From Methylocystis sp. IM3 (GTDB taxonomy: Bacteria; Pseudomonadota; Alphaproteobacteria; Rhizobiales; Beijerinckiaceae), in assembly GCF_038070105.1 (NCBI RefSeq), contig NZ_JBBPBZ010000002.1:2120001-2184000 (forward strand): 64,000 bases of DNA. Reading direction: 5' to 3'. The notes under the pieces are model-generated. The model was given only the letters and a program-made list of their open reading frames with translations, was not told the origin of the DNA and did no database searches. Positions within the stretch are counted from its first letter, which is position 1. Each line of letters begins with the position of its first letter. Positions 36,441-47,231 of this stretch are shown here, in pieces. A program made the position numbers and the translations under genes.

Positions 36441-36456
36441 TGGCGGCCCCGGCAGG
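36441..36456. other. Left attachment site of the island
   Basis: TGGCGGCCCCGGCAGG, identical to the last 16 bases of tRNA-Arg (CCA end included) read on the opposite strand at 47216-47231. The match starts exactly at the tRNA CCA end, as expected for a tRNA-targeting integrase. Confidence 0.8.
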
Positions 36457-36602
36457 GTTGCACGCCAGCAAGAAAATCAGCGGCTTGCAGCGTCAAACAT
36501 CGAAACAGCCCGCATTGAAACGCAAGGGCTTTTCCAGCGAGTGTCAAAACGCTGAACTGCCCCGGGTTTGCCGGAGGCCCCAACTCTTGAGAGACTGGGG
36601 CT

Positions 36603-36938
36603 ATGGAAGCGAAGAAGAAGACATCGAACAGATTTTCACCTGAAGTTCGGGAGCGGGCGGTTCGGATGGTGCTGGAGCACCAGGGGGACCACGCCTCGCA
36701 ATGGGCGACGATCGCCTCGATTGCCGGGAAGATCGGCTGCACGGGCGAGACGCTTCGCGGCTGGGTCCGACAGGCGGAGCGAGACGCCGGCTCGCGCGCC
36801 GGCGTCACGTCGGACGAACGGGCGCGGCTGAAGGCGCTGGAGCGGGAGAACCGCGAACTCCGGCAGGCCAATGACATTTTGCGGAAGGCTTCGGCGTATT
36901 TTGCTCAGGCGGAGCTCGACCGCCGGTCGAAACCATGA
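36603..36938 (+). CDS. IS3-family transposase OrfA
   Basis: A protein of 111 residues. The helix-turn-helix region ([16 protein letters not shown] to [13 protein letters not shown]) binds the ends, followed by a leucine-zipper-like helix ([22 protein letters not shown]). It overlaps orfB as ATGA. In IS3 elements OrfA and OrfB are fused by programmed frameshifting in the overlap. Confidence 0.92.
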
Positions 36939-37836
36939 TCGCCTTCATCGACGCGCACCGGGAGAGCTACGGGGTCGAGCCGATCTGCAAGGTTTTGCCG
37001 ATCGCCCCGTCGACGTATCGCTCGCATGCAGCGCAGCGGCGCGATGAGACGAAGCTGTCGACGCGGGGGCGTCGGGACCGGGCGCTCGGCGAGAAGATCC
37101 GCCGCGTGTTCGCGGAGAACTTCTCCGTCTACGGCGCTCGAAAAGTGTGGCGGCAGCTGCGGCGCGAGGGGAGGATGTCGCGCGCTGCACGGTGGAGCGG
37201 CTCATGCGGCGCCTGGGCTTGCAGGGCGTCGTGCGCGGTCGGCCGGCAAAAACCACTGTGAGCGACAGCAAGGCGCCCTGTCCGAGAGACAAGGTGAACC
37301 GACAGTTCGCGGCGGATCGGCCAAACCGGCTGTGGGTAGCCGACTTTACCTATGTCGCGACCTGGCAGGGCTTCGTCTATGTCGCTTTCGTTATCGACGT
37401 CTTCGCCCGGCGGATTGTCGGGTGGCGAGTCTCGCGTTCGGCGCAGACGCCCTTCGTGCTCGACGCGCTGGAACAGGCGTTGTGCGATCGACAGCCTCTT
37501 CGCGGCGGTCTCGTTCATCACAGCGACCGCGGCGTGCAATATGTCTCGATCAAATACACGGAGCGACTTGCGGACGCCGGTGTCGAACCCTCAGTCGGCA
37601 GCGTCGGCGACTCTTACGACAACGCGCTCGCCGAGACGATCAACGGGCTCTACAAGGCCGAGGTGATCTGGCGGCGCGGACCGTGGCGCGGCCTCGAGCA
37701 GGTGGAGTTCGCCACGCTTGAATGGGTGGACTGGTTCAACAACAAGAGATTGCTGGAGCCGATCGGAAACATTCCGCCGGCCGAGGCAGAAGCGCGCTAC
37801 TATGCGCAAATCGAGGAGCACGCCATGGCGGCGTGA
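36935..37836 (+). pseudogene. IS3-family transposase OrfB, frameshifted
   Basis: The DDE integrase domain is complete but split. The first frame (36935-37261) runs to WRQLRREG, and the second (through 37836) resumes with [16 protein letters not shown]. Catalytic residues are present: D in VADFTY, D in HHSDRG, E in [10 protein letters not shown]. Restoring one G in the G-run at 37168-37171 would rejoin the frames. This is not the usual IS3 frameshift site, so the copy is probably inactive unless it is a sequencing error. Confidence 0.85.
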
Positions 37837-38021
37837 CTCAAACGAAACGGCCTCCGGCAAACCCGGGGCGGTTCACGCGGGAACGGGACGAAGCCGCCGC
37901 CAGACCCCGGACGCAGAAACGCCGCCCCGGGTGGAAACCGGGACGGCGCCAATAGAAAAAAGGCTTGCTTCGCCAAGACGGAACGTAACGCTGCGGACGG
38001 AGACGCGCAAGGGGGTGCGCG

Positions 38022-39233
38022 ATGAGTGTGCCCCTATCCGAAGCACAGGCGACATGGCTTCCCGTCGCGCGCCTTCGTCGGGCGCAATTGCAGAAGATCG
38101 CGCGCCACACGCGCGACGATCCGAGCTTCCCTTGGCGAAAATTCGCAAGGGCAGTCACAAACGAGACGATGGCCATTCCCAATGGCGTGCATTTCGTCGC
38201 CGGCGACCGTCACACATGGCCGAGAGCTAATGCAGCAACGGCGCTGTGCTGGGGCAGAAACGCGCCGTTCGCGACGCTAGCAGAGGTTCCTCAGCACATT
38301 CTCTCCGAGGCTGAGGCCGGCGCCGCCGAGGCGCTGGCTGTAGGCGCGCACCTTCTCACGGATGGATCCTCGCTCGGTCGCGCGATCGGCATGACGCCAG
38401 AGACGCGAGAAAAGTTGCGGGTGTGGCTCATATGGCCGGCAGGCTGGAACTCGGACGACCTAGCCGCGCGCCGTATAGCGCGCGCCGCCGAGCGCCGGGC
38501 GAAAGACAGGATACGGAAGCAGCAACAGCGAAGGGCAAATGGAATGGCCGAGCGAAAGGACTACGAGGCGAACAGTCTGGCGTCACAGGCGCGAAAGTTG
38601 GGTGTGAAGCCCGACACGCTGCGGGCGCGCGTAAGGCGCGCCGCGCATGTCACACCTGATGTCGCGAGTGTGTCCGCAGCCAATATATATAATACTTGTG
38701 GTGCGGACAGACCCGCGACAAAGCGTGACACCCTAGCAGAACAGGCGAGAAACATTGGCATTTCGCCGGCTGCTCTTCGGAAGCGGCTACAGCGCGAGAG
38801 ACAGCGCCAGCGACAGCCTGAAAATGTCACGCACGCGACAGCGGCGCTCCCAAGCGCCGCGCATGTCACACACGCGACAGCCACACCCGATCCTGTCACA
38901 CACGCGACAGTCACACCTGCGACATGCGCCACAATTGAAAACGGCCGCTCGGCGCTCTTGGCGTGGCTCCCTGTCCAAGTTGCCCATCTGTGCCGCGTGA
39001 TCGCCTTCCAGTCCGCCGGCCGGTGTCACGCCTATTTGAACGACCTCGAGGCGCTCAACCGGGAGTGCGGCGTGAGCATGAACAAGACGCTCGAGCTACT
39101 TCGGCCCCTTGGTTTCAGCGATGACGACATTTACCGAGCGATGGACGACGTGCAACGGCTCAGCGCCGAGGAATGTGCCGACCGGGCGCGTTTCGCCCGC
39201 ATCGCGCGCCAGCAAGAGCGGCTTGCCGCATGA
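38022..39233 (+). CDS. Large HTH protein, candidate replication or regulatory protein of the island
   Basis: A protein of 403 residues with no recognised family. Two short helix-turn-helix segments stand out: LGVKPDTLRARVRRA near residue 195 and IGISPAALRKRLQRE near 245. A basic stretch precedes them, and a VTHAT repeat region lies at about 268-305 where the DNA shows iteron-like repeats. The C-terminal 90 residues look globular. A protein that binds repeats inside its own gene is typical of replication initiators of satellites, but no helicase or primase motif is seen. It heads a run of genes joined by ATGA overlaps. Confidence 0.6.
   Translation: MSVPLSEAQATWLPVARLRRAQLQKIARHTRDDPSFPWRKFARAVTNETMAIPNGVHFVAGDRHTWPRANAATALCWGRNAPFATLAEVPQHILSEAEAGAAEALAVGAHLLTDGSSLGRAIGMTPETREKLRVWLIWPAGWNSDDLAARRIARAAERRAKDRIRKQQQRRANGMAERKDYEANSLASQARKLGVKPDTLRARVRRAAHVTPDVASVSAANIYNTCGADRPATKRDTLAEQARNIGISPAALRKRLQRERQRQRQPENVTHATAALPSAAHVTHATATPDPVTHATVTPATCATIENGRSALLAWLPVQVAHLCRVIAFQSAGRCHAYLNDLEALNRECGVSMNKTLELLRPLGFSDDDIYRAMDDVQRLSAEECADRARFARIARQQERLAA
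38825..38910. repeat. Three iteron-like repeats inside the HTH gene
   Basis: TGTCAC(A/G)CACGCGACAG occurs at 38825-38841, 38864-38880 and 38894-38910, each a TGTC/GACA dyad. Partial copies (GTCACACCTG, GCGACATG, GCGACAAAGCGTGACAC) surround them at 38647, 38714 and 38910-38925. They encode the VTHAT repeats. Confidence 0.7.
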
Positions 39234-46089: not shown

Positions 46090-46091
46090 AC

Positions 46092-47129
46092 ATGCCAAGA
46101 AAGCGGTTTCCCTACGTCCAAGAGTGGACAGATAAGAAGACCGGGCGGCGCTATTACTTTTTCCGTCGCCCCGGCTTCCCTCGCGTTCCCCTGCCCGCCC
46201 CTTATGGCGGGGACGACTTCAAGCACGCATATGACCTTGCGATGGCCGGCGCGCCCAAGGCGGTTGGCGCCACGCGCTCGCCGCCAGGAAGCATGTCGGC
46301 GCTCATCGCGTCCTTCTACGCGTCCGCCAAGTTTCAAGCCCTTCGCCCGATAACGGCTGCGACCTATCGCAACATCCTCGAAAGGTTCCGAGCGGAGCAC
46401 GGCCACAAGACAGTCGCGGGGATGCAGCCGAAGCATGTCAACGCCCTCGTGGACGGCGTGAAGAGGCCGCACGCGCGCAAGCGCCTGCTCAACCTTCTTT
46501 CGCTTCTCATGAAGCACGCGATCAGAACCGGCCTTCGTGAAGACAACCCGGCGCGCGACATTGAGGTTGAACTTCCAAAGAGCGAAGGCTTCTTGTCTTG
46601 GACCGAGGAAGAGATTGCGCAGTTCCGCGCCCATTGGGAGCTCGGCACCCTTCCCCGTCTCGTCCTTGAAATAGCGCTGAACACAGGACAACGGCGCGGC
46701 GACCTCGTGCGCATGGGGCGCCAGAACATCCGCGACGGTAAAATACACATCACACAGGCGAAGACGGGAACCGCCGTCCACATCCCCATCAATGGCGACC
46801 TGATGGCCGCGCTCGCCTCCCCGCCGTGCCGGGACTTCGGCCCTTTCCTACAGACAGAGAAGGGCGCGTCGCGCAGCGCAGCGGGCCTCGGCAACGACTT
46901 TCACGACTGGGTGAGGGAAGCAGGCATTGAGCGTCCTTTGACGCTCCACGGCTTCCGCAAGGCCGCCGGGCGGCGCTTGGCGGAGGCCGAATGCACCGCG
47001 CCCCAGGTTATGGCCATCCTAGGCCACAAGAGCCTGAAAGAGGCACAGCGTTACATCGACGCCTTCAACCGGGAGAAGGCCGGAGAGGCGGCAATGGCGA
47101 AGATAGAAAAAACCTTCGGAAAGGGGTGA
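46092..47129 (+). CDS. int: Tyrosine-family integrase of the island
   Basis: A protein of 345 residues. An N-terminal arm-binding part is followed by a SAM-like core-binding domain (about 70-165) and the catalytic domain. Catalytic residues: Arg201 in NTGQRRGD, His286 and Arg289 in LHGFRKAAGR, His312 in LGHKS, Tyr321 in AQRYID. Phage-type integrase that recombines at the 3' end of the adjacent tRNA-Arg. It ends 87 bases before the tRNA end, as usual for tRNA-targeting elements. Confidence 0.95.
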   Translation: MPRKRFPYVQEWTDKKTGRRYYFFRRPGFPRVPLPAPYGGDDFKHAYDLAMAGAPKAVGATRSPPGSMSALIASFYASAKFQALRPITAATYRNILERFRAEHGHKTVAGMQPKHVNALVDGVKRPHARKRLLNLLSLLMKHAIRTGLREDNPARDIEVELPKSEGFLSWTEEEIAQFRAHWELGTLPRLVLEIALNTGQRRGDLVRMGRQNIRDGKIHITQAKTGTAVHIPINGDLMAALASPPCRDFGPFLQTEKGASRSAAGLGNDFHDWVREAGIERPLTLHGFRKAAGRRLAEAECTAPQVMAILGHKSLKEAQRYIDAFNREKAGEAAMAKIEKTFGKG

Positions 47130-47144
47130 AAAATGAACAAAAAT

Positions 47145-47169
47145 TGTCAAACACAGGAAAGTTTTGACA
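47145..47169. promoter_or_regulatory. Inverted repeat between integrase and att site
   Basis: TGTCAAA (47145-47151) and TTTGACA (47163-47169) form a dyad around an 11-base spacer. Its place between int and the attachment core suggests an integrase or excisionase arm site. Confidence 0.4.
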
Positions 47170-47215
47170 GTTTGGCTTTGCAAGGCTTTGAAAACAAAGG
47201 CGCTGGTTTAGTGGA

Positions 47216-47231
47216 TGGCGGCCCCGGCAGG
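47216..47231. other. Right attachment site of the island
   Basis: TGGCGGCCCCGGCAGG, the complement of the tRNA-Arg 3' end; exact copy of 36441-36456. Because this end keeps a complete tRNA gene, integration restores the tRNA. Confidence 0.82.

Follow-up and report, generated by a model that had tools for sequence, protein, structure and literature searches.

In a stretch of 64,000 nucleotides from Methylocystis sp. IM3 (contig NZ_JBBPBZ010000002.1, positions 2,120,001 to 2,184,000; hereafter the window), an island of 10,791 bp with its own HK97-type major capsid gene occupies positions 36441-47231. The island is real, well bounded and probably a functional capsid-carrying satellite similar to the phage-inducible chromosomal islands (PICIs). 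The features that define it are listed below.

36441..36456, plus strand: left attachment site (attL), an exact 16-base copy of the tRNA-Arg end; identity to genome G323 breaks just to its right
40984-42258, plus strand: HK97-type major capsid gene, 424 aa (TIGR01554 2.5e-63, PF05065 2.4e-46, phrog_10 2.4e-60)
46092-47129, plus strand: tyrosine integrase (PF00589 1.5e-19, phrog_1 2.6e-37)
47216..47231, plus strand: right attachment site (attR), within the tRNA-Arg gene
47216-47292, minus strand: tRNA-Arg(TCG)

The search of the whole 64 kb window showed that the 16-mer TGGCGGCCCCGGCAGG is present at 36441 and 47216 only. For the examination of the island edges, the window was compared with G323, a genome classed in the same species as the host and carrying a different element at the same tRNA-Arg site. 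The two genomes were 99.5% identical over 36001-36440 and 100% over 36341-36440. The identity was 16/16 at the left repeat and then dropped to 73% over 36463-36552. On the right side, it was 98.7% over the tRNA gene (47216-47292) and 97.2% over 47293-47400, and inside the right edge it was 84% in the integrase gene and 65% between the integrase and the tRNA. As the identity breaks at both repeats, we conclude that both edges of the island are real. This bears out the original prediction, made from the letters of the window, that the bounds are firm and set by an integrase beside a tRNA-Arg gene and an exact 16-base copy of the tRNA end 10.8 kb away.

The G323 flanks lie on two contigs (L155 from about position 2637, and L156), and its element was seen in part. 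This element carries a sister integrase having 87% protein identity to that of the island. The rates of nonsynonymous (dN) and synonymous (dS) substitution between the two integrase genes were 0.081 and 0.524, respectively, giving a dN/dS of about 0.15; judged by these values, the integrase is under purifying selection. The combination that characterizes the Gram-negative PICIs, an integrase with defined attachment sites, is present in the island. Within this species, the tRNA-Arg site appears as a site with swapped contents.

The capsid gene was identified by profiles, and its predicted fold and its alignment with relatives were examined. The AlphaFold2 model of the protein (mean pLDDT 81.4) has the HK97 fold, and the Foldseek search with this model listed the capsid of a gene-transfer agent first (2.4e-16) and that of HK97 at rank 7 (1.4e-13). 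Two N-terminal delta-like helices, 6-26 and 33-67, are followed by a low-confidence link. The N-terminus is thus predicted by the model to be as expected of a delta domain. In an alignment with 15 relatives, the window capsid deviated at 0 of 36 otherwise invariant columns, as did six other rows. Among 70 nearly invariant columns it deviated at 2, which was the fewest of the 16 rows; the relatives had been chosen by similarity to the window capsid, which favours it in this comparison. The capsid gene therefore looks undamaged, and the prediction of one complete HK97 major capsid gene with its delta domain held good.

To search for the genes that usually accompany a capsid gene, the whole host genome was scanned with profiles at an E limit of 0.001, the island corresponding to C2:2156441-2167231 in host coordinates. 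The portal family PF04860 was matched only at C2:726892-733295 and the portal family PF05136 only at C2:2784272, both outside the island. The S78 protease PF04586 was found at C2:725854 and 2785704, neither of them in the island. The large terminase (TerL) family PF03237 was matched only at C2:734054, outside the island, and TerL PF03354 nowhere in the host genome. In addition, 20 island open reading frames (ORFs) were picked by eye from the mechanical ORF list and scanned against PHROGs at 0.1, together with a shorter reading of one of them (g80, below); none matched a portal, protease or terminase. Ten ORFs were also scanned against Pfam and NCBIfam, two more against Pfam, and ten against PADLOC. 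The frames of an insertion sequence (IS) were left out of the ORF scans, and late-gene families beyond these libraries would escape them. The only late-gene name besides the capsid among the ORFs scanned was a very weak match to a spanin.

42567-42701, minus strand: 44-aa ORF, lipoprotein-like by eye; very weak Rz-like spanin match (0.036)

A profile built from six relatives was used for a six-frame search of the island for a P27-type small terminase (TerS), and none was found (best E 1.1). The claim that the island has no recognisable portal, protease or terminase gene therefore stands for the families tested. The full set of a capsid-forming PICI (cf-PICI), that is portal, protease, connectors, TerL and TerS, was not found, connectors being covered only by the ORF scans and a TerS-like role of g80 being possible. 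Meanwhile, the combination known from Ccm of the island SaPIbov5, in which an HK97-fold capsid homologue has a delta domain but comes without a protease, is seen here too, the protease having been sought by the PF04586 and PHROG scans.

Two of the regions matched outside the island deserve mention. The cluster at C2:726892-734674 (partly L127) contains five PF04860 portal matches in a row, four of them above the cut-off, as well as a capsid, a protease, an adaptor, a major tail protein and TerL. From its gene content, it reads as a prophage or a gene-transfer-agent-like cluster with repeated portal genes. At C2:2784272-2786126, the PF05136 portal precedes a frame of 621 aa with a protease match; this may be a second resident late module and a possible helper.

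The remaining genes and sites of the island are as follows.

36553-37875, plus strand: IS; its terminal inverted repeats differ at one position in 26, and the 3-bp direct repeat CGC flanks it on both sides
38022..39233, plus strand: g403, putative replication or regulatory protein; weak matches only, mostly helix-turn-helix, and no primase match
38825, 38864 and 38894 (38825..38909), plus strand: three palindromic 16-bp iteron-like repeats, TGTCACRCACGCGACA, inside g403
39230..39445, plus strand: g71, whose start codon overlaps the stop codon of g403; a single weak match, in Pfam (0.049)
39811..40053, plus strand: g80, 80 aa, small conserved cassette protein; 203 aa if read from an in-frame start at 39442
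40057..40452, plus strand: g131, second gene of the conserved cassette
40535-40554, plus strand: 20-bp palindrome CCGATTTGA-AA-TCAAATCGG, shortly before g134 and the capsid gene
40563..40967, plus strand: g134, directly upstream of the capsid gene; predicted fold unusable (pLDDT 36)
42790..43200, minus strand: 136-aa protein, signal-like N-terminus by eye
43190..43444, minus strand: XRE-type helix-turn-helix regulator, read from the ATG of MSLTPAQ; PADLOC control protein 2.7e-11
44356..44697, plus strand: g113, common to other loci of the genus (52% in L124, 48% in L128)
44732..44977, plus strand: g81, small ORF; very weak NCBIfam match 'putative phage replication protein' (0.038)
45064..45447, plus strand: g127, small ORF
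45727..46089, plus strand: HTH_17/excisionase-type (AlpA-like) regulator directly upstream of the integrase gene; start codon uncertain

Besides the capsid, the recognisable ORFs are the integrase, the excisionase-type gene and the XRE regulator, the rest having weak matches or none. Most genes within the 10.8 kb run on the plus strand, with the XRE gene and the 136-aa gene on the minus strand. The gene organisation of the Staphylococcus aureus pathogenicity islands (SaPIs) was not seen. The HTH_17 gene next to the integrase gene matched phrog_25900 (transcriptional regulator, 1.1e-10), phrog_66 (0.0014) and, below the cut-off, PF12728 (0.0012); no family named AlpA matched it. The scan for defence systems matched only the XRE and HTH regulators. 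Copies of the short GC-rich sequence at 45530-45572 are found at several sites across genomes of the genus.

The IS at 36553-37875, which is absent from the earlier description of the island, is IS3-like by eye. The second of its transposase frames falls into two parts, 36935-37261 and 37147-37836, and is either frameshifted or read by a programmed shift. A deletion caused by the IS was considered and rejected, as the 3-bp flanking repeat suggests a simple insertion, three bases being weak evidence.

This gene content raises the question of whether the island is a decayed prophage, that is, a full phage reduced to an integrase, regulators and a capsid. The inserted IS would fit such a history, and so would the regions at about 42.3-42.8 and 44.0-44.35 kb, where no ORF had a convincing match. 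The same is true of the very weak spanin match and of a degenerate second XRE gene end, as 42710-42774 duplicates (78%) the stretch 43217-43281 in the 3' part of that gene. Sequences related to 42710-42774 recur in many genomes of the genus. However, both the capsid and the integrase are intact, and no clear remnant of another late gene was seen in the 20 ORFs. Apart from the spanin match, neither damaged phage genes nor several late-gene remnants were found. The earlier argument against decay, based on small genes joined by start/stop overlaps and on intact control sites, held in its first part only. Overlaps were found between g403 and g71 (39230-39233) and between g71 and the next ORF (39442-39445), but promoter and terminator sites were not above chance: the sigma-70 scan gave 0 sites vs 1.8 expected, and terminator-like sites numbered 13 vs 12.1. 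The three iteron-like repeats inside g403, in contrast, do exceed chance (see below).

The relatives of the capsid were then used to see in what surroundings such genes occur. The nearest capsids, P0002-P0010, were 51-58% identical to that of the window, with P0004 from Methylocystis sp. at 58%. Together with the window capsid they formed a 10-row set in the tree (SH-aLRT 100). This tree omits four of the 85 rows, namely L104, L127, L128 and L017 (the last below 200 residues), and includes L012 by its first capsid copy. Scans of genome contigs and viral contigs with the single capsid protein were unproductive, and the A2 scan of viral contigs gave one distant locus. A class-wide search at E 1e-60 matched one of 385 genomes, the host itself; the capsid clade is therefore rare among the sampled genomes. 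In plasmid and phage records, the capsids were all below 60% identity, at about 25-31% among the matches listed. Tiny plasmids such as NC_008226.2 (7,881 bases, Clostridioides difficile) encode an HK97-type capsid that is 25-27% identical. A recent origin of the capsid from another resident phage was considered and found no support, as the three other PF05065 capsids of the host gave no match at E 0.001 in a single-protein comparison.

The viral contigs L010-L029 are the best 20 of 80, drawn from 484 confirmed relatives, and a PF04860 portal is on record in 11 of the 20. The other nine are mostly short fragments, which makes the missing portal match weak evidence; among these, protease matches were found in L024 and L018. 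Related capsids thus occur in full phage modules, as decay from a prophage would have it. In five of the 11 portal-bearing contigs (L010, L011, L013, L015 and L016; 43-45% identity), the capsid ORF of 542-646 aa contains a protease domain in its N-terminal part and is accompanied by a portal.

These contigs bear on a further possibility, namely that the island is a reduced relative of a cf-PICI, which started out with the complete head module and has come to borrow everything except the shell protein. Such a history could have passed through a state like that of L018, a 9.9 kb contig in which a capsid, a protease, a helicase and an integrase-like gene were seen but no portal was matched. Yet the five portal-bearing rows with fused protease are set apart from the window clade in the tree, the deep forks of which are unsettled, and none of the loci examined was a halfway form carrying the g80-g131 cassette. 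We consider this origin very improbable.

Other relatives occur in islands of a different kind. The capsids of L012, L096 and L097 (42-48% identical to that of the window) lie in islands lacking PF04860, PF04586 and PF03354. In L096, from a gammaproteobacterial metagenome-assembled genome, exact repeats of 53 bp lie at 4781 and 13374 and delimit about 8.6 kb; the second of them is in a tRNA-Leu gene. L097, from Oceaniglobus ichthyenteri, is bounded by exact repeats of 49 bp, one at 1593 and one, at a tRNA-Asn gene, at 10048, which gives a length of about 8.5 kb. Both capsids are 42-43% identical to that of the window. Both islands have an integrase (phrog_1 4.3e-51 in L096 and 1.2e-66 in L097) and a phrog_83 small terminase (5.6e-5 and 4.9e-26, respectively); L096 also carries an excisionase-type gene (phrog_66 0.0002) and L097 a primase. 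None of PF04860, PF04586 and PF03354 was found within either island, and the sole portal and protease of the Oceaniglobus genome lie on a different contig from L097 (285,019 vs 188,712 bases). PHROG scans of eight L096 and six L097 ORFs, leaving out four small ORFs of L096 and one of L097, found no portal, protease or large terminase. In L012, which also has a helicase, one capsid-TerS pair lies on each side of a tRNA-Asn gene; this contig piece is perhaps two related islands in tandem. L019 has a capsid followed by two TerS genes and an integrase, and L020 one capsid-TerS pair; L012, L019 and L020 are pieces of contigs.

As capsid-TerS islands recur and are twice precisely bounded, we take them to be a recurrent design and not one accident of decay. 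Two islands of similarly reduced content with exact attachment repeats thus exist in other bacteria, and capsid-bearing loci without a portal occur three times in the host genome itself (see below). Both observations speak against a decayed prophage, which we hold to be quite improbable. A satellite is the better reading than simple decay, as had been predicted; the portal, protease or terminase genes named in advance as evidence to the contrary were not found with the families tested. Another such piece of evidence would have been relatives that are full prophages, and here the outcome was divided. Those relatives sharing the g80-g131 cassette that were inspected are small tRNA-linked islands and not full prophages, but the relatives of the capsid are mixed where their surroundings could be read, some of them having a portal and a protease.

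The gene g131 was found in six of 397 family genomes, at eight places, and five of the six genomes (the host included) belong to the host genus. A g80-like protein lies beside g131 in L124, L129 and L145 (BLAST with the window g80), in L143 and L144 (with the L129 member) and, by eye, in L146. Genes for tRNA were seen near six of the seven other g131 places, the exception being L147. An integrase was recognised in L129 by profile, in L124 and L144 by similarity, and in L143 and L145 by eye, and a primase by profile in L143 and L144; the 657-aa product of the large L129 gene had no primase match. L124 and L129 are small tRNA-Pro-linked islands with the cassette. In protein searches, g131 matched nothing but itself, and the single further match of g134 was a 38% relative, on a contig of 1 kb.

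The g80 relatives of L129 and L145 share a GRGGRRxGAGRP motif and weakly match the TerS family phrog_18735 (0.0039 and 0.0034). The window g80 had no phrog_18735 match and reached only phrog_15261 (0.0022), a family without assigned function. As two relatives reach the TerS family weakly and the window protein does not, the cassette is called packaging-related only tentatively, and g80 is tentatively regarded as small-terminase-like.

The structural companion of the cassette is not the same everywhere. It is the capsid in the window, and a capsid together with a tape-measure protein in L129, where the tape-measure gene lies at 5020-7311 (C2:1895019-1897310; phrog_1292 6.3e-26). In L124, a tape-measure gene lies at 10539-12920 (phrog_1292 3e-22), and tblastn with three capsids found no match. 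The host genome contains two capsid loci besides that of the window, L128 (C2:538784-539917) and L129 (C2:1897601-1898731), both with another capsid type. The L129 island is flanked by 15-bp copies of the tRNA-Pro end at C2:1890630 and 1906922. For L128, no bounds were found, and an integrase-like gene and a primase lie upstream. With the families tested, no portal, TerL or S78 protease was found in either locus. The two capsids are 88% identical, with a dN of 0.095 and a dS of 0.640; dN being low relative to dS, the substitutions appear to have been filtered, part of this history possibly predating island life.

If a satellite brings its own tape measure, the length of the tail could be under its control. 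It is conceivable that the g80-g131 islands form a satellite family with interchangeable single structural genes (a capsid, a tape measure or both), each resetting one dimension of the helper virion, with the window island as the capsid-only member. We hold this to be unlikely on present evidence. If true, head size would be set by the satellite capsid and tail length by the satellite tape measure. Three such loci with two capsid types in one genome, together with the tape-measure sisters, make a natural comparison set for a test of particle size. The sister islands with a tape-measure gene are the most unusual lead, although they lie outside the window.

The variation of the structural gene among the cassette loci (window, L129, L124 and L143) also suits the idea that the island is a satellite whose capsid does not serve head resizing. 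The gene would then be a dispensable passenger, or would act as a dominant-negative protein or decoy to spoil phage assembly and shield the host. In the case of EcCICFT073, phage plaques did not return to normal when the capsid or the decoration gene was deleted (PMC6092414), which fits a capsid of this sort. However, the window capsid and those of L128 and L129 look as if kept by selection, pointing to some use, and the window capsid retains a delta-like domain, which a decoy would not need. This explanation is therefore somewhat unlikely in our view.

The replication of the island may start inside g403. Three matches to the iteron-like repeat were found at up to 3 mismatches vs 0.05 expected, the pattern itself being among the three, and a looser form had one further match in the window, at 56964. 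In the 9.3 kb searched, 6 of 8 TGTCRC and 7 of 11 GYGACA half-sites fell within 38648-39024. The AT run AATATATATAATA near 38682 (about 38682-38695) lies upstream of the repeats and is absent from the list of the 12 most AT-rich 20-bp windows. The repeats are a candidate replication origin, but they also encode a repeated peptide and may be no more than a coding repeat. No primase or helicase family was matched in the 20 ORFs scanned, which leaves g403 as the sole replication candidate. The palindrome at 40535-40554, picked by eye and unique in the window, is a possible operator but may equally be due to chance.

Taken together, we propose that the island is a PICI-like satellite whose own capsid protein co-assembles with, or replaces, the shell protein of a helper phage, and we give this reading a probability of roughly 0.48. 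It is favoured by the firm attachment bounds, the intact capsid, the dN/dS of the integrase and the two further capsid loci in the host. It is also favoured because L096 and L097 pair a related capsid with a small terminase and because the cassette recurs in tRNA-linked islands. Upon helper phage activity, the integrase and the AlpA-like regulator would excise the island from the tRNA-Arg gene, and it would replicate from the iterons inside g403 with host or helper enzymes. The helper would supply the portal, prohead protease, large terminase and tail, as suggested by their absence from the island. The g80-g131 cassette might steer the packaging motor of the helper to satellite DNA, for which the weak TerS matches of its relatives give slight backing. 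The island capsid would enter the assembly pathway of the helper, co-assembling with or replacing its shell protein. The most likely product would be small shells that favour the satellite of roughly 9.5 kb and spoil the helper yield, as Ccm does for SaPIbov5.

Several observations weigh against this proposal. No helper was identified, and the gene surroundings of the capsid's own 10-row clade could not be read from the sequences at hand. Capsids that are as distant as those of L096 and L097 (43-45%; L010, L011, L013, L015 and L016) sit with a portal and a protease. The family search found a capsid at E 1e-20 in 8 other genomes of 298, at 25-33% identity, and the best of these, from the host genus (G017, 33%), sits with a protease and a portal. 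Among the cassette loci, the capsid of L143 is in fragments, and the capsid match of L144 is below the threshold (PF05065 0.0043, phrog_10 0.0027). A P27-type small terminase was not found in the island, unlike in the capsid-bearing L012, L019, L020, L096 and L097, and neither was a primase gene, which the canonical Gram-negative PICIs have. As a published knockout of a PICI capsid gene was tolerated, the gene may be a passenger.

No account of Methylocystis islands of such a kind, or of capsid-plus-TerS islands, was found in the literature searched, which consisted mostly of abstracts, and a first description is not claimed. Passages of PMC10187409 and PMC10872708 contained nothing bearing on satellite capsids; further satellite families are listed in the review PMC11389934.

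The original prediction regarded an element bringing only the shell protein as a different solution from those of known satellites. This view is not supported, as precedents exist in SaPIbov5, in PmCI172 and in most reference Gram-negative PICIs. Ccm of SaPIbov5 is an HK97-fold capsid homologue from which the delta domain is removed, no protease having been identified in the SaPI (PMC8569155). It occupies the pentamers of small T=4 shells, the other structural proteins being derived from the helper (PMC8569155, PMC5052747). The window island resembles SaPIbov5 as an integrated satellite with one HK97-fold capsid homologue, a delta domain and no protease identified, but Ccm has 355 aa vs 424 aa here. 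The role in head size was shown for Ccm, whereas for the present island such a role would be by analogy. PmCI172 has a lone major-capsid homologue and small heads, the role of the capsid there being untested (PMC6092414).

The cf-PICIs carry a protease, portal, connectors and both terminase subunits besides the capsid (PMC10690885). They share with the island an HK97 capsid gene of the satellite's own and differ in the rest of the head and packaging set, which was not found here. L096, L097, L012, L019 and L020 have a related capsid (39-48%) and, as in the window, no PF04860, PF04586 or PF03354 was found; all five differ from the window in having a phrog_83 small terminase.

In layout, the island appears similar to the Gram-negative PICIs, which have a size of 10-20 kb, an integrase and an alpA-type gene, mostly one gene direction, a capsid gene and iterons near the replication gene (PMC6092414, PMC10111431). 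The capsid gene is their commonest late gene; it is present in 21 of 29 reference elements and dispensable for transfer (PMC10111431). Lone capsid genes are common in Gram-negative satellites, yet the deletion of one was tolerated. The iteron sets of these PICIs surround an AT-rich region beside the primase gene (PMC6092414); two sets lie 3' of the replication gene, whereas the repeats of the window lie inside g403. The window island further differs in lacking a recognisable primase, in its XRE gene on the opposite strand and in the g80-g131 cassette. With no primase found, repeats within g403 and the cassette, it departs from the canonical Gram-negative PICIs and looks like a new lineage. Such PICIs have been described especially from Enterobacteriaceae and Pasteurellaceae, and the island probably widens the diversity of satellites to an alphaproteobacterial genus of methanotrophs.

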